NCBI GenBank assembly: GCA_017999985.1
Contig: JAGNKU010000016.1
Coordinates: 1-64,000 of the forward strand
From: Phycisphaerae bacterium
Lineage (GTDB): Bacteria; Planctomycetota; Phycisphaerae; UBA1845; Fen-1342
Length of the DNA stretch: 64,000 nucleotides
Direction: 5' to 3'
The notes under the pieces were generated by a model. The model ran no database searches and had not been told where the DNA came from. It was given only the letters and a program-made list of their open reading frames with translations. The position numbers and the translations under genes are program-made. How positions within the stretch are numbered: position 1 is the stretch's first letter; every line of letters starts with the position of its first letter. This document shows, one piece after another, positions 41,294-47,524 of this stretch.

Positions 41294-42250
41294 TCATCCC
41301 AGCGTGTGATCCACGACGAGTTCGCGGATCAGTCTGCGCACGCCCTCTTCCGTCGGCGGAATCTCGGTGTAGCCCTCTTTCGTGAGCACGATCGCCTGCA
41401 CGCGGTGCACCTTCGTCGGCGAGCCGGCCAGACCGCACCAGCTCAGGTCCGCTTTGATGTCGTCCAGCCCCCACTGGTCCATCATCAGCCCCCGCGCCCG
41501 CAGCGTCTCCGCCCGCCGTTCAACCTCGGCCTCCAGCGCCGCCGGCGACAACTCAGCTGGAGCTTTGTGCTCTCCCGGGGACAGCAAAGCTCCTGCTTTG
41601 CTTTCTTCCTTCACCGCCGCCTCCAACTCCGCCCGCACCACCGCGCGCTTGTACTTCATCACGCGCCGTGCGGCCGGCGGACGCGGCTCGGCCGCTGTGT
41701 CGAGCACCGTGATCAGCACCGGCAGCCGCACTTCGACCAGCTCCCACCCATTGCCGACGTTCCGGCGAATACGGGCGGTGCGGTCCTTCAGCTCGACGAG
41801 TTCCTCCAGGTACGTCACCTGCGGGATGCCGAGCTTCTCGGCGCACTGCGGCCCGACCTGCGCGGTGTCGCCGTCGATGGCCTGCCGGCCGCAGAAGACG
41901 AAGTCGTACTGGCCGAGCGTGCGGATCGCCCGGCTGAGGATGTAGCTCGTCGCGAGCGTGTCGCTGGCGGCGGCCCGGCGATCGGTGAGCAGGATGGCCC
42001 GGTCGGCGCCGCGATAGAGGCAGTCGCGGAGCACGTCCGCGGCCTTCGGCGGGCCCATGCTGATGACGGTCACGGTCCCGCCGTAGCGGTCGCGGACCTG
42101 GAGTGCGACCTCCAGCGCATGGAGGTCTTCGGGGTTGAACACGGTCGGCAGGGCGGCGCGGTTGACGGTGCCGTCGGCCTTCATGGCCTCGGCGGTGATG
42201 TTCGCCGTGTCGGGGACCTGCTTGACGCAAACGACGCTGTGGTACGGCAC
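41294..42250 (-). CDS. Electron transfer flavoprotein beta subunit (second, bifurcating-like set)
   Basis: This 318-residue EtfB shows VVCVKQVPDTANI, FNPEDLHALEVAL, VTVISMGPPKAADVLRD, GADRAILLTDR, SDTLATSYIL and GRQAIDGDTAQVGP. That series is like the NAD-binding EtfB of electron-bifurcating ETF/Bcd complexes in anaerobes. About residues 216-231 (around AGALLSPGEHKAPAE) are encoded by a palindromic repeat and interrupt the normal charged helix. The start is GTG 42250 with GGGAG upstream. It is the first gene of the etfB2-etfA2-dehydrogenase unit. Actual bifurcation is an inference. Confidence 0.92.
   Translation of the reverse strand: MPYHSVVCVKQVPDTANITAEAMKADGTVNRAALPTVFNPEDLHALEVALQVRDRYGGTVTVISMGPPKAADVLRDCLYRGADRAILLTDRRAAASDTLATSYILSRAIRTLGQYDFVFCGRQAIDGDTAQVGPQCAEKLGIPQVTYLEELVELKDRTARIRRNVGNGWELVEVRLPVLITVLDTAAEPRPPAARRVMKYKRAVVRAELEAAVKEESKAGALLSPGEHKAPAELSPAALEAEVERRAETLRARGLMMDQWGLDDIKADLSWCGLAGSPTKVHRVQAIVLTKEGYTEIPPTEEGVRRLIRELVVDHTLG
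41559..41602. repeat. Palindromic repeat inserted in the etfB2 reading frame
   Basis: AGCAAAGC-TCCT-GCTTTGCT forms a perfect 8-bp hairpin at 41583-41602. An overlapping outer pair GGAGCTTTG / CAAAGCTCC spans 41559-41593. A related hairpin (AGCGAAGC-TCT-GCTTTGCT) is intergenic at 43412-43430, which supports a mobile element family. Confidence 0.6.
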
Positions 42251-42327
42251 GTTTAGGCTCCCTCACACTCTCCACCGTGGAAAGCCCCGCGAAACTAGCA
42301 GCGCGCCGCCGGAGCGTCAAGGGAAGG

Positions 42328-42405
42328 GGAAGCCACGGAGCCACGGAGGGCTGAGGGGCTGCGCCGTCCTTCGTCGCTTCGTGGCTCCGTGGCTCCGTGG
42401 CTTCC
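42328..42405. repeat. 21-bp perfect inverted repeat between etfB2 and fabI
   Basis: The arms at 42328-42348 and 42385-42405 are exact reverse complements, with a 36-base loop. Each arm contains the unit AGCCACGG twice. It occupies the shared upstream region of the divergent etfB2 and fabI genes, where promoters would be expected. Confidence 0.8.
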
Positions 42406-42474
42406 TCCTTGCTTTCCCCCTTCGCCCGCCTAAGCTTGTGCGAGCTGATACTTGTTTCGGGCGAGGAGTCGAAC

Positions 42475-43263
42475 GTGAAGAACATGTCAATGGGCCTGAT
42501 GGACGGGAAGAAGGGCATCATCTTCGGCGTCGCGAACGACCGTTCGATCGCGTGGCACATCGCCGAGCGGCTGCACGCCGAGGGCGCCGAGCTGGCGTTC
42601 ACGCACCTGCCGCCGCCGAAGATGGAACGCCGCGTCCGGCTGCTGGCCGAGCCGCTGGGGGCGACGTGCATCGTGCCCTGCGACGTGACCGATGACGCCC
42701 AGATCAAGGCCGCGTTTCAGGAGGCGAACCGGCAGATCGGCCCGCTCGACTTCATCCTGCACTCGATCGCGTACGCCAGCCGGGCGGCCCTGTCGAACCC
42801 GTACTACAAGACGAGCCGCGCCGACTTCGCCCAGGCGCTGGACATCAGCGTCTACTCGCTCGTCGCCCTGTGCCAGCACGGCCTGCGCTACCTGAACGCG
42901 GGCGCGAGCATCCTGACGCTCAGCTACCTCGGCGCCGTCAAGATGGTCCCCGGCTACAACGTCATGGGCGTCTGCAAGGCCGCCCTCGAATCCAGCGTCC
43001 GCTACCTCGCCGGCGAGCTCGGCCGCGAGAAGGACATCCGTGTCAACGCAATCTCCGCCGGCCCGGTGCAGACGCTGTCGGCCGCCGGCGTCAGCGACTT
43101 CGACAAGATCCTGCGGCACTATCCGCTGAAGGCCCCGCTGCACCGCAACATCCGCCCGACGGAAATCGGCACGAGCGGGTTGTACTTCCTGAGCGATCTA
43201 TCGAGCGGCGTAACCGGCGAGGTCCACTACGTCGATTGCGGCTACAGCATCGTCGGCTGGTAG
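42475..43263 (+). CDS. fabI: Enoyl-[acyl-carrier-protein] reductase (NADH), FabI
   Basis: FabI reduces enoyl-ACP in the last step of each fatty-acid elongation cycle. The protein has the NADH fold GVANDRSIAWHIA and the catalytic segment LSYLGAVKMVPGYNVMGVCKAALES, containing the family tyrosines and lysine, followed by AISAGPVQTLSAAGV. GTG 42475 is chosen because GAGGAG lies six bases before it; an ATG at 42484 is the alternative. It is divergent from the bifurcating-like etf operon. Downstream lies a long repeat island. Confidence 0.95.
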   Translation: MKNMSMGLMDGKKGIIFGVANDRSIAWHIAERLHAEGAELAFTHLPPPKMERRVRLLAEPLGATCIVPCDVTDDAQIKAAFQEANRQIGPLDFILHSIAYASRAALSNPYYKTSRADFAQALDISVYSLVALCQHGLRYLNAGASILTLSYLGAVKMVPGYNVMGVCKAALESSVRYLAGELGREKDIRVNAISAGPVQTLSAAGVSDFDKILRHYPLKAPLHRNIRPTEIGTSGLYFLSDLSSGVTGEVHYVDCGYSIVGW

Positions 43264-43765
43264 CCGCCGATCCCCGAATCGGCTGTCCCGCTCGGGTACG
43301 GGGAAGCTCCGGCTTCGCCGCATGTGTGGCACCGCCACCCTACCGGTGAAGTTGTGGCACCACCGTCTCGGTGGTGGTGTAGTGGCACCGGCGTCTCGCC
43401 GGTTGGGGGAGAGCGAAGCTCTGCTTTGCTCGCCGGTGATGTAGGGTCCGCCCCCCGTGGCCGACGTGTAGCAGCCGACCCCCGAGTCGGCCGTCATAGC
43501 TGGGGGATAGGCCTCCGGCCTGTCGTCTGACCGACCGGAGGTCGGTCCCCCAAGTGGGGGCCACACTGCGTCCGCCCGGCCGTGGGCGCGTCCAGAAACT
43601 GGCGGCCCTTCAGGCGGGCCGCAGGTCGGTAGCTGGGGGCGTCCGCGCCCCCGGACACCAGCGCCGCGCCGCCGATCCTCAAGCCCCAGCAGCGCGCTGG
43701 TTTGTCCCGCTCCGTGCCTGCGTGCCTCCGTGACTGCGTGCCTTCGTCCCTTTCAGTGTCCCATC
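43264..43765. repeat. Palindrome-rich intergenic island
   Basis: About 500 bases after fabI are a mosaic of short hairpins rather than a gene: CACCACCG-TCT-CGGTGGTG, CACCGGCG-TCT-CGCCGGTTG, AGCGAAGC-TCT-GCTTTGCT, GCCGACCCCCGAGTCGGC, GACCGGAGGTC and GGGGGCGTCCGCGCCCCC. Several share a stem-TCT-stem plan. They look like an accumulation of small palindromic elements. Confidence 0.7.
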
Positions 43766-43817
43766 CGCCCGAAGGGCGCACGCCGGTTGCCAGGGTCTTC
43801 AGACCCTGGAGGGCGAG
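43766..43817. repeat. Left arm of a 52-bp inverted repeat flanking the zinc-ribbon gene
   Basis: This arm pairs with 44650-44701 (49 of 52 positions complementary by my count). It includes two internal palindromes, CGCCCGAAGGGCG and CCAGGGTCT-TC-AGACCCTGG. The pair encloses roughly 830 bases. Confidence 0.8.
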
Positions 43818-44085
43818 GCATCCTCGTCATTCTCCCTTCAGCCTGGAGGGATGACGAAGCGTTGTGGTCGAGCGACGCCCACGGGAGAATGGCAGCAGGT
43901 GTCCGCGCGGCACCTGATGACGCGTGGAATGGGACCGTGCCCTGAGAGCCGCCGCCGCGCTGCGCGAGAGATGGAAGGCCGTGTACCAGTCGGATGAACA
44001 CCCTTCTGTGGAAAGCATGCGAGCGCTGTGAATCGCCCAATGGGCGTGCACAACTCTGTGCGCCGCCCTGGTCGGTCTGTTCATC

Positions 44086-44511
44086 GTGAGTTACTACCAG
44101 GCCGTCGTCTGCATCGACGCAGCGGGGCAACCGCGTGTGCTGATCGCGCAGGGCAGCGTGTCCGTGACGATCCATTGCGAGCAGCCGGTTGACGTGTGCT
44201 GCGGCCCGGGGGCAACGCTGTCCAAGGGGCGTTGGCAGACCCTGGCAACGCCGTCGATTCCGCTGCTGACGGTGCAGGCGGCAATGCAGTCGTGGTCCAC
44301 ACCAGTCACGATACGGATCTGGCTGTGGCTGCTGATCGTCGTGTCGGGCTGCGCCGCCGGGATGTTTGCCTTGGGAGTACGTATGCGTAGGTCGGCGCGC
44401 CGGGTGTGCTCGTCGTGCGGCTACGACCTCACCGGCAATGTCACCGGGCGGTGTTCGGAGTGTGGTCACGAGTGCAGCCGGGATATTCGTTACACGGGGC
44501 GACGGGAGTGA
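44086..44511 (+). CDS. Small membrane zinc-ribbon protein (CGYDLTGN family), possibly 5'-disrupted
   Basis: The frame ending at 44511 encodes a periplasmic-type stretch, a transmembrane helix (about residues 75-97 from GTG 44086) and the four-cysteine ribbon CSSCGYDLTGN / CSECG. It is the second family member here (see 682-1095). Upstream of 44086 the same frame continues open to 44032 and encodes a further hydrophobic stretch (CAALVGLFIVSYY), but without an ATG. An ATG at 43994 reads MNTLLWKACER in another frame. A one- or two-base frameshift near 44020-44030 may have broken the gene. It sits inside the inverted-repeat pair. Confidence 0.55.
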   Translation: MSYYQAVVCIDAAGQPRVLIAQGSVSVTIHCEQPVDVCCGPGATLSKGRWQTLATPSIPLLTVQAAMQSWSTPVTIRIWLWLLIVVSGCAAGMFALGVRMRRSARRVCSSCGYDLTGNVTGRCSECGHECSRDIRYTGRRE

Positions 44512-44649
44512 CGCTTCAATTGTCCCCTGCGGGGACTCTCATTGGAGGAAGAAGGGGAGATGTAGGGGGCCGATTTCCACGGGCTTGCGCCCGAGGCTAC
44601 TCACAGACGCCCGCTGCGCGGGCTAGGAGGGAAAAGGACGGTGGTGGGG

Positions 44650-44701
44650 CTCGCCGTCCAGGGTCTGAAGCCCCTGGCAACCGTCGTGCGCCCTTCGGGC
44701 G
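44650..44701. repeat. Right arm of the 52-bp inverted repeat
   Basis: Reverse-complementary partner of 43766-43817, differing at three positions. No target duplication is visible just outside the arms. Between the zinc-ribbon gene and this arm (44512-44649) are more short palindromes such as CCCCTGCGGGG and GCCCGCTGCGCGGGC. Confidence 0.8.
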
Positions 44702-44741
44702 ACGAGTCCGAAAGGGCGGTTCTACGGGAACGTCCGCGCGC

Positions 44742-44969
44742 CTACGTCTTCGCCGGCGGATCGATGTCCGGCAGCTTGAACGTCCGCTCGCCGTAGCGGA
44801 CTTCGCCGGTGCGGAGGAACTCTTCGAGGTGTGGCCGGCACGTGCCGCAGCCGGTGCAGCAACCGGTCTGGCGGATCAACTCTTCGATATCGGTGATCCC
44901 ATGCCGGCGGGCATAGCTGCGCAGGGCGATGAAGCTGAGTTGCTTGCAGTCACAGCGGGTGGTGCCCAT
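44742..44969 (-). CDS. BFD-like [2Fe-2S]-binding protein
   Basis: From ATG 44969 the 75-residue protein has CxC near the N-terminus (RCDCKQLSF) and CTGCGTC in the middle, matching the four-cysteine BFD-like [2Fe-2S] domain. Bacterioferritin-associated ferredoxin (Bfd) uses this fold to reduce and release iron from bacterioferritin; other small members serve in different redox roles. No bacterioferritin gene is adjacent. It lies between the repeat island and a TCAGC repeat block. Confidence 0.75.
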   Translation of the reverse strand: MGTTRCDCKQLSFIALRSYARRHGITDIEELIRQTGCCTGCGTCRPHLEEFLRTGEVRYGERTFKLPDIDPPAKT

Positions 44970-44978
44970 GGCGGGATT

Positions 44979-45030
44979 GTAAGCGGTCAGCAATCAGCGG
45001 TCAGCACTCAGCCAGAGCTACTGACCTGCG
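44979..45030. repeat. TCAGC-type short tandem repeat block
   Basis: Units GGTCAGCAATCAGCGGTCAG and CACTCAGCC are followed by CTACTGACC in the opposite sense. This is the third copy of the repeat type seen in the acyl-CoA dehydrogenase operon. Confidence 0.55.
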
Positions 45031-45050
45031 ATCGGCCGCGCGAGCCGCGC

Positions 45051-45815
45051 TTACGCCAGATACCGCCGGGCCCAGGCGGCTAGCAGGTCGGCGACGTAGC
45101 GGGCGTCCTGCTCGCGGGCGATCAGGAGATGATCGGCGCCGTCGAGGGCGATGAAGCTCTTCGGGTGGCGCGCGGCCTCAAAGATGCGACGGGCGTGGTC
45201 GATGCCGACCACGTCGTCGGTGGGCGAATGGAAGATCAGCAACGGCAGATTGAGCTGCGCGACTTCGGCCAGGACATCGTGCTTCCGCAGATCGTCGAGC
45301 AGTTGCCCCTTGATCCGGATCGGGCGGCCAGCCACCTCCACCTCGGCGACCTCGTCATGCCCCAGCCCCGGCGCCTGCCGCGTCAGGAACTCCTGCATAT
45401 GCCCGAGTCCCGCCGGCGCGGCGATCGTCGCGACCGCGACCGTCTCCGGAATCTGCCGGGCGGCGACGAGCACCGCCGTCCCGCCGAGGCTGTGGCCGAT
45501 CAGGATGCGCGGCGCCTGGTAGTTCTGGCGGAGGAAGTCGGCGGCCGCGAGAAGATCGGCGAGATTTGACGTGAAATTGGTGTCGGCGAAATCGCCCTCG
45601 CTCTCGCCGAGGCCGGTGAAGTCGAAGCGGAAGAAGGCGATGCGGCGATCGACGAGTTCGCGGCTGATCCAGGTGACCGCCTTGAGGTCCTTCGTGCAGG
45701 TGAAGCAGTGGGCGAAGAGGACGTAGGCGAGCGGGTTGGCGGGGGCGTCCAGCCGGGCCGCCAGACGGTTGCCGAGGGCCCCGGTGAACTGCACGCGCTG
45801 GCGTTGCGGGAACAT
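45051..45815 (-). CDS. Alpha/beta hydrolase (stand-alone, OsmC-fusion type)
   Basis: The 254-residue protein has FAHCFTCTKDL, DFTGLGESEGDF, the nucleophile elbow GHSLGG, the acid region FHSPTDDVVG and the histidine in GADHLL. This pattern is that of the hydrolase half of bifunctional alpha/beta-hydrolase/OsmC proteins; the OsmC domain is missing here and no separate OsmC gene is next to it. The substrate is unknown. Start ATG 45815. Confidence 0.85.
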   Translation of the reverse strand: MFPQRQRVQFTGALGNRLAARLDAPANPLAYVLFAHCFTCTKDLKAVTWISRELVDRRIAFFRFDFTGLGESEGDFADTNFTSNLADLLAAADFLRQNYQAPRILIGHSLGGTAVLVAARQIPETVAVATIAAPAGLGHMQEFLTRQAPGLGHDEVAEVEVAGRPIRIKGQLLDDLRKHDVLAEVAQLNLPLLIFHSPTDDVVGIDHARRIFEAARHPKSFIALDGADHLLIAREQDARYVADLLAAWARRYLA

Positions 45816-46270
45816 GCGAAACCTCAGCCGGGTGCGCTCATGTGCCGCCTCATCGAAGGGAGTTCATCACAGGGGTGGTACGGGCGTCCCGCCCGTCGTC
45901 GGAACCGGTAACATGCCCGTACCACCCATGTTGGAATACCTCTGAGGCACTACAGAGCCCATATCCACGGGTCGCCGGCAGAAAACCGTAGGCTGTTTTC
46001 GGACGCGCGCCAAGCGGGACGGCGGCTGGTAGCGCGGCTGGTTCACCGGGGCCGGGCAGGTGCGGTGCGGGCGGCGACTGGCGTTCCAGCACACAACGCC
46101 CACGCGTTATCGGAAGCCGCCGGTAACGACGGGGTTGGCGGCGGTGGCCGGCGCGTCGCTATCGGAATGGTCTGAGCGCCCTGCCCGATTCGGACGATGG
46201 AACCGGGGCAGACGGAGTTTCGAGACGTTCACCCCGGCCCGCGAAGCCGGGCCAGCACCCGAGGAAGTGC
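45816..46270. other. Gene-free stretch containing one dispersed repeat
   Basis: Apart from the hairpin repeat at 45873-45927 I see no gene or RNA here. Short open frames are present on both strands but have poor codon character. The upstream region of the coiled-coil gene, with AGGAAG before its ATG, falls at the end of this interval. Confidence 0.5.
45873..45927. repeat. Dispersed hairpin repeat (GGGTGGTACGGGC family), copy 1
   Basis: The 13-base arms GGGTGGTACGGGC and GCCCGTACCACCC are perfect reverse complements and enclose an internal GGGCGTCCCGCCC palindrome. Copy 2 is at 62054-62107 and a half-copy (GGTGGTACGGGCA) is near 49596. All lie between genes. Confidence 0.8.
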
Positions 46271-47524
46271 ATGAGCACGGTGACGACCCCAGCGCCGCAC
46301 ACCGCCGAGGATGAGGGCGGGTTGATCCTGACGGCGGACGCACCCGGGACCGGGTTGCGCAAGACGAGCCAGCCGCCCCGTTCGCGCGGGGCCCGCTGGC
46401 GACGGCTCTGCGATGACCTGACGGCCCGCGCCGAAGCGCTCCGCAGACTGCGTGACGAGATCGAGCCGAAGGCCGCACTGCTCGACGACCGCGCGAAGGA
46501 GCTGGACACGCGTGCGGCGGACCTGGATGCGCAGGTGCGGCAGAGCGAGGCCCTGGCCGCCGAACTAGCGCACGGCAGCGCCGAGCTGTCAAAATTCGCC
46601 GCCCAGCTCGATGCGCGGCGCGCAGAAATGGACCAGGAGGCGGAAGCCCAGAAGATTCGCAGCGAGGAGTTGGCAGCGCTGGCCGCCGCGGTGGATGAGC
46701 GTGAGAAGGAGTCCGCCTCCCGGGCGCGTGCGCTTGACGAGCGCGCGCGGGTCCTCGAGATGCGGGCGCGCGAAGTACACACGCAAGTCGGTGAGCTGTC
46801 GGCGCGGATGGCGGAGCTGGAGCCCCGGCAGGCCGCGCTGGAAGACCTGGCCGAACGACTGAACCGCCAGCGTCGCGAGGTGGACGCCCAGAGCGCGGCC
46901 TGCGCGGTGCGCGAGCAGGAATTGGACGAGCGGCAGCGCACGCTGGGCGCGCTGGCCGAGCAACTGGCCACGCGCGCGGCCGACGTGGATAAGCGCCAGA
47001 AGGCGCTCGCGAAGGTGGCCCACAAGGTCAAGGAACGGCGGCGTGCCATGTCGCGCCGCGTGGCGGAAGTCGAGGAGAAGTGGCGCGCGATCCAGGGCGC
47101 GACCGAGCGGCTCGAGGCTCGCAGCGCCGAGCTGAACGCCTGCCGGTCCGATCTGAGCGCCGAGACGGCGCAACTGGCCGAGCTGCGCAGCCAGCTCACC
47201 GTGCGGGCCACGGAACTCGATGAGCGCGAGGCAGAGCTGGCCGCCAACCTCAGCCGCCATGAGCAGCGCGCCCAGATGCTGGATCGCCGCACCCTGGAGG
47301 TCGATCGGCGCGAGCGCACCCTGGGGCGACGCGCGGACGAGCTGGCCGCCCGCGAGCGCGAGCTGAACGTGCAGCGGCAGCGGCTGGAAGCGCAACGCGG
47401 CGACTTCGACGCCTGCGTCGGCACGCTCGCACGCTGGATCGGCTCGTACGTCAGCGCGGCGCGGGCCGAGGGCGAATCCGCCAGCAGCGGCAGCAACCTG
47501 GACGACGAGACGACAGTTCGCTGA
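46271..47524 (+). CDS. Long coiled-coil protein
   Basis: This 417-residue protein starts at ATG 46271 with AGGAAG upstream. From about residue 45 to 395 it is almost uninterrupted heptad-like sequence rich in Ala, Arg, Glu, Leu, Gln and Asp (for example LDERARVLEMRAREVH, LDEREAELAANL), predicting a long parallel coiled coil. No transmembrane segment or enzymatic motif is visible. Such proteins act as scaffolds, cytoskeleton-like filaments or chromosome-associated factors. The C-terminus is short and acidic. Confidence 0.75.
   Translation: MSTVTTPAPHTAEDEGGLILTADAPGTGLRKTSQPPRSRGARWRRLCDDLTARAEALRRLRDEIEPKAALLDDRAKELDTRAADLDAQVRQSEALAAELAHGSAELSKFAAQLDARRAEMDQEAEAQKIRSEELAALAAAVDEREKESASRARALDERARVLEMRAREVHTQVGELSARMAELEPRQAALEDLAERLNRQRREVDAQSAACAVREQELDERQRTLGALAEQLATRAADVDKRQKALAKVAHKVKERRRAMSRRVAEVEEKWRAIQGATERLEARSAELNACRSDLSAETAQLAELRSQLTVRATELDEREAELAANLSRHEQRAQMLDRRTLEVDRRERTLGRRADELAARERELNVQRQRLEAQRGDFDACVGTLARWIGSYVSAARAEGESASSGSNLDDETTVR

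Follow-up and report, generated by a model that had tools for sequence, protein, structure and literature searches.

The closest described systems to the locus analysed here are the REPINs (Bertels and Rainey 2011, PMC3116915), the GTAG-tagged REPs and REPtrons (PMC3733652), the TnpA transposases of IS200/IS605 subclass 1.2 (PMC6006769) and the REP-unit mosaics known as BIMEs. The part of PMC3733652 drawn on here covers REPs in Planctomycetes and gives it as a known habit of GTAG-REPs that they supply the TAG stop codons of genes. Subclass 1.2 is recognised by the signature Y---Q--HH (Quentin et al. 2018, PMC6006769), and its members are described as generally without typical terminal structures and as occurring mostly in Cyanobacteria and Bacteroidetes (PMC6006769). 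Our window, meaning the whole 64,000-nucleotide stretch of a Phycisphaerae bacterium contig that was analysed, holds a small zinc-ribbon gene between two inverted arms at 43766-44701, which a sequence-only reading had taken for either a non-autonomous mobile cassette or two converging REP elements. We consider it highly probable that in the arms a REP, here called S, is present twice in REPIN orientation, that the arms descend from the ends of an IS200-like element, and that they now stand around an unrelated zinc-ribbon gene and a second repeat, here called R.

The arms and the DNA around them

Separated by 832 nt, the left arm (43766-43817, + strand) and the right arm (44650-44701, - strand) match as reverse complements at 49 of 52 positions, just as the sequence-only reading had it. 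When the 1.9-kb region was resampled 30 times under a first-order Markov model, the best inverted match of a 52-mer came to 29-33 of 52, so the pairing of the arms is not due to chance. The description of each arm as two small palindromes also holds, since both fold, with the right arm slightly imperfect. In each arm a spacer separates the outer hairpin CGCCCGAAGGGCG from a GTTG foot, which is followed by the main hairpin CCAGGGTCTTCAGACCCTGG; in the left arm the two hairpins and the foot between them lie at 43766-43778, 43786-43789 and 43790-43809 (outer hairpin, foot, main hairpin), and the right-arm foot is at 44678-44681 on the - strand. The arms thus show the GTTG/GTAG-like tetranucleotide 5' of an imperfect palindrome that marks a REP, with GTAG in some other S copies, such as the one at L012. 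The 52-bp arms are real, but they are not the whole repeat: an inner hairpin at 43824-43857 (+), resembling GGAGGGCGGACGAAGCG, the inner hairpin of S elements in relatives, is part of the left element, and on the right the 3' flank or linker beyond the arm belongs to the repeat as well. A pattern scan across the window for hairpins behind GTAG or GTTG gave no enrichment over control tetranucleotides, and no Rfam family was found within 42000-46500.

The presence of a CGYDLTGN zinc-ribbon gene and further hairpins between the arms, with no transposase, is borne out. A tblastn search of the interior with four transposases gave matches at E>0.1 only, so no RAYT remnant was found there. The open reading frame as called runs from GTG 44086 to 44511 (+) and encodes a membrane helix, a loop, a second helix and the zinc ribbon. 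The likely original start is ATG 44017, giving a frame of 44017-44511, and four codons on there is an in-frame TGA at 44029-44031. The homologue at L121 reaches further upstream than the residue matched to window codon 44035, and the GTG start falls inside the first membrane helix as judged by eye from the sequence. With a stop codon so near its likely start the gene looks broken and is probably decaying, or the assembly may be in error at that spot. Small membrane zinc-ribbon proteins of this kind form a large family, which has 19 matches in the source genome and tens in relatives; the nearest homologues of the window gene match chiefly in the zinc ribbon. Elsewhere in this family, three tandem paralogues (L107, G004:C44) are a sign of local expansion, and in G015 a REPIN happens to sit about 21 nt away from where one zinc-ribbon gene stops.

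The R-type dispersed repeat begins at the stop codon of the gene and occupies about 44505-44628 (+), between the gene and the right arm; its bottom strand reads GTAG followed by CCTCGGGCGCAAGCCCGTGG. It is 81-82% identical to the units that frame, in inverted orientation, an IS200-like gene of the source genome (G000:C1:400514-400966). A remnant of a second R-type transposase, consisting of the C-terminal 44 residues at 59% identity, lies near this intact copy (L055:2741-2872). A zinc-ribbon gene sits between the two, and at L055:1979-1985 a zinc-ribbon gene has its TAG stop supplied by the GTAG of a REP.

On the left, the conserved neighbour is a fabI-like enoyl reductase gene (42397-43263, +), and on the right it is a gene for a BFD-like [2Fe-2S] protein (44742-44993, -). 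A GTAG-REP of the class-2-type RAYT at G000:C12 lies at 43260-43285 (+), with one in the same place in the relative G010, a second of this type at 43468-43493 (+), and another GTAG-tagged hairpin GTAGCTGGGGGCGTCCGCGCCCCCGG at 43629-43654 (+). The fabI-like gene takes its TAG stop from the GTAG at 43260-43263, likewise in G010, and two REP copies of the L058 type stand beside that gene within 43260-43654.

G010 and G001 also have these two genes side by side, about 140 bp apart in the former and about 97 bp in the latter, and both the zinc-ribbon gene and the arms are absent from these syntenic relatives. Their intergenic DNA has diverged too far for the junctions of the insert to be located. 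Relatives that keep the gene without the arms, which the sequence-only reading had named as evidence against itself, were not seen; G010 and G001 lack both. As far as the compared genomes show, with one genome of the source genus in the set, the REP-rich intergenic insert is private to the lineage of the window. Another reading takes the arms for hairpins with a regulatory or terminator role in the flanking genes, and not for mobile-element relics. In its favour, the REPs here lie at gene ends, where they may affect mRNA ends, and the region stands between convergent fabI-like and bfd genes. Neither terminator-like sites nor sigma-70 promoters were found within 43200-44800, however, the arms are missing from the same gene pair in two relatives, and in relatives they track a transposase. 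We give this reading almost no weight and regard a regulatory origin of the arms as refuted, though a regulatory effect may have been gained later.

The S family and its transposase in relatives

A search of the source genome and 60 relatives gave many partial matches to the arms, both elsewhere in that genome and throughout the order, and no second copy of the whole 936-bp bounded unit in the 61 genomes. The partial matches define the S family, with the two-hairpin consensus CGCCCGnAGGGCGCACGAyGGTTGCCAGGGnCTTCAGnCCCTGG. The covariance model R1, built from 20 S copies, scores the left arm at 69.0 bits and the right arm at 70.0 bits. The stems covary: double-change cells number 16, whereas shuffled alignments average 5.1 (0 of 500 as high) and slid controls give 1 to 4. 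At E<=1e-4 there are 15 R1 units in the source genome and 15-25 per genome in relatives, a low copy number for a REP, and the placement is intergenic where it was seen locally. The source genome has two adjacent S pairs within 2.5 kb, of which the window pair is the sole converging one, and its S units are otherwise single. The contigs that carry the S motif are, where named, mostly Phycisphaerae or Planctomycetota metagenome assemblies, and this places the family there. Matches of a 20-mer in Chloroploca, Nocardiopsis and Acetobacter reach about 20 bits or have no model match, and we take them as chance.

In sister genera S units frame a 150-aa IS200-like transposase in the arrangement S(+)-tnpA-S(-). 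There are five complete cases of 648-673 bp, each with a PF01797 match between the S units (G046:C1:13838-14491, G046:C1:642107-642754, G022:C222, G059:C10 and G018:C475), and the S feet are outermost, which is the same geometry as in the window pair. Two further transposases, at G007:C102 and G015:C2:66418, are flanked by S arrays. The association with a Y1/HUH transposase is thus found in the relatives and not in the source genome (98.65% complete), where a search for a cognate S transposase found none.

Outside the window we found 25 S(+)/S(-) pairs within 2.5 kb, and no other gene cargo was found in them among the genomes examined: 18 are of REPIN length, 5 contain tnpA and 2 are split by an IS110-like gene, one of these also holding tnpA. 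The 18 doublets, of 169-252 bp, all lie in relatives and qualify as REPINs, and such REPIN-length pairs predominate in G015 and G046. In the G015 and G046 pairs inspected, the inner hairpin CCCGCCCGGAGGGCGGACGA is present both in the short doublets and bordering tnpA, so the doublets look like internal-deletion derivatives of the tnpA element, that is, REPINs. S pairs at two sites, L145 (G015:C2:463900-466400) and L067/L160, contain the same IS110-like transposase gene, which suggests that an IS110-type element targets the S REP.

The transposases that partner S and R are both 150 aa long and share 42-44% identity between the types. They carry HUH together with Y---Q--HH (as YIARQKEHH and YIAGQAEHH), a signature seen at 24 loci. 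All three of those tested exceed the cut-off of NF033573 (IS200) and none that of NF047646 (REP_Tyr_transpos), and the nearest solved structures are of IS200/IS605 type, such as ISHp608 TnpA. Our tentative assignment to subclass 1.2 is by motif, length and the IS200 model. At 21 of the 24 loci, from the source genome and relatives together, the inverted repeat across the gene is above every shuffle by a margin; at L064, L067 and L072 it is at or near the shuffled maximum, with S units further out at L064 and L067. The Phycisphaerae Y---Q--HH genes (L062-L091) mostly have inverted two-hairpin ends that vary in sequence and share a layout of outer hairpin, GTAG/GTTG-type foot and main hairpin. 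In the source genome a different inverted REP family frames each of four transposase genes (L055, L058, L059 and L060), and the three class-2-type genes among them (L058, L059, L060) each have their own REP. From these sequences it appears that two-hairpin ends are common among planctomycete IS200-like genes bearing the subclass 1.2 signature, which may be a new point, and a link between subclass 1.2-type transposases and REPINs is possible.

Origin of the converging pair

That the locus holds two converging REP-type ends, the second of the two proposals, is well supported by the foot and hairpin of each arm, the dispersal of S, the covariation of its stems and its framing of transposases and REPINs in relatives. 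Most probably S makes up the ends of an IS200-like element with a single-strand transposase. The element survives in sister genera, where the intact S-tnpA-S form measures about 650 bp and its non-autonomous derivatives are REPINs, about 170-250 bp long, whereas in the lineage of the window S units would persist as relics. Movement of S and R would presumably have been by peel-and-paste of single-stranded DNA, carried out by a HUH/Y1 transposase through recognition of the hairpin together with the foot 5' of it. The pair at 43766-44701 would then most likely represent both ends of a single element or REPIN. What lies inside it now is probably unrelated DNA: the zinc-ribbon gene, as a bystander, and a REP of R type derived from another IS200-like element. 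Against this stand the length of 936 bp, which is that of neither a REPIN nor a transposase element, the lack of a transposase remnant between the arms, the join of the right S to R, and the lack of a match to a cognate S transposase in the source genome.

Instead of having ever been one element, two solo S-type REPs could have settled independently and in converging orientation on either side of the gene. The R-S composite of the right arm recurs without a zinc-ribbon gene at C23:195-318 (79% over 126 nt), so the right arm and R form a repeated mosaic independent of the gene and the arms could have arrived separately. Most S units of the source genome are single, REPs crowd this intergenic region, and an R unit at C2:2329 (L017) likewise follows the stop of an unrelated gene. 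On the other side, by our hand estimate 15 units in 5.2 Mb would give about 0.01 converging pairs within 1 kb under uniform placement, and perhaps 0.1 if S is confined to intergenic DNA. In addition, the two arms share an outer-loop GAA that is absent in the other S copies inspected, and the left arm fits the left-type S ends and the right arm the right-type ends. We therefore hold independent arrival to be unlikely, while giving it real weight, and a single-element origin of the pair is favoured by orientation, end types and this rough chance estimate of 0.01-0.1.

The first proposal of the sequence-only reading, a true non-autonomous cassette, would have S ends moving zinc-ribbon cargo in trans or the gene replacing tnpA. 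The geometry and end types do match those of the autonomous element, the R homology starts at the stop codon of the gene just where tnpA ends in the R element, and the gene and the arms are jointly absent in two syntenic relatives. But there is a single copy in 61 genomes, all 25 of the other +/- S pairs hold only REPIN interior, tnpA or an IS, and the gene looks broken at its start. A tie between S and zinc-ribbon genes is rejected, since no S unit was found near any of 29 zinc-ribbon loci of relatives within the DNA examined, and the replacement of tnpA by the gene is weakened by the R unit that follows an unrelated stop at L017. Arms that occur singly, which that reading had itself named as counter-evidence, are what the source genome shows, and this speaks against the cassette. 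We find the cassette improbable, and we would likewise not expect this Phycisphaerae IS200-like family of subclass 1.2 type to be able to bear a host zinc-ribbon gene where its transposase would be, between intact hairpin ends, as a gene-bearing and potentially trans-mobile REPIN.

Comparison with known systems

What replaces the cassette is a picture of a planctomycete lineage in which relics of several single-strand transposases abound, every one of these transposases having a REP family of its own. S and R are new REP/REPIN families of a known kind. IS200-like transposases with two-hairpin GTTG/GTAG-type ends that apparently yield REPINs are good material for the study of how REPs originate from insertion sequences.

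Like the REPINs of PMC3116915, S forms inverted REP doublets with the tag ends outermost, is intergenic and tied to a Y1 transposase, and its solo copies look like remnants. It differs in having an IS200-like partner (NF033573) below the NF047646 REP_Tyr_transpos cut-off, two hairpins per end, and 15-25 copies per genome where REPINs have hundreds. The window pair has the REPIN orientation, with the feet outermost, but its ends are 936 bp apart with other DNA inside, which is not a typical spacing. With the GTAG-tagged REPs and REPtrons, as far as they are set out in the part of PMC3733652 drawn on here, S shares a foot (mostly GTTG in S) followed by a hairpin and a place at gene ends, and the locus shares GTAG giving TAG stops and REPs that frame a tyrosine transposase. 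S has a different sequence and an extra, outer second hairpin, and a planctomycete S family is not described in that part of the source. The partner transposases resemble TnpA of subclass 1.2 (PMC6006769) in their length of about 150 aa, HUH motif and Y---Q--HH, and differ in coming from Planctomycetota and in that most have clear inverted two-hairpin ends and REPIN derivatives. Finally, the R-S joins are like BIMEs in being mosaics of REP units in alternating orientation, but the mosaic in the window mixes two REP families of different transposases and has a gene between them.
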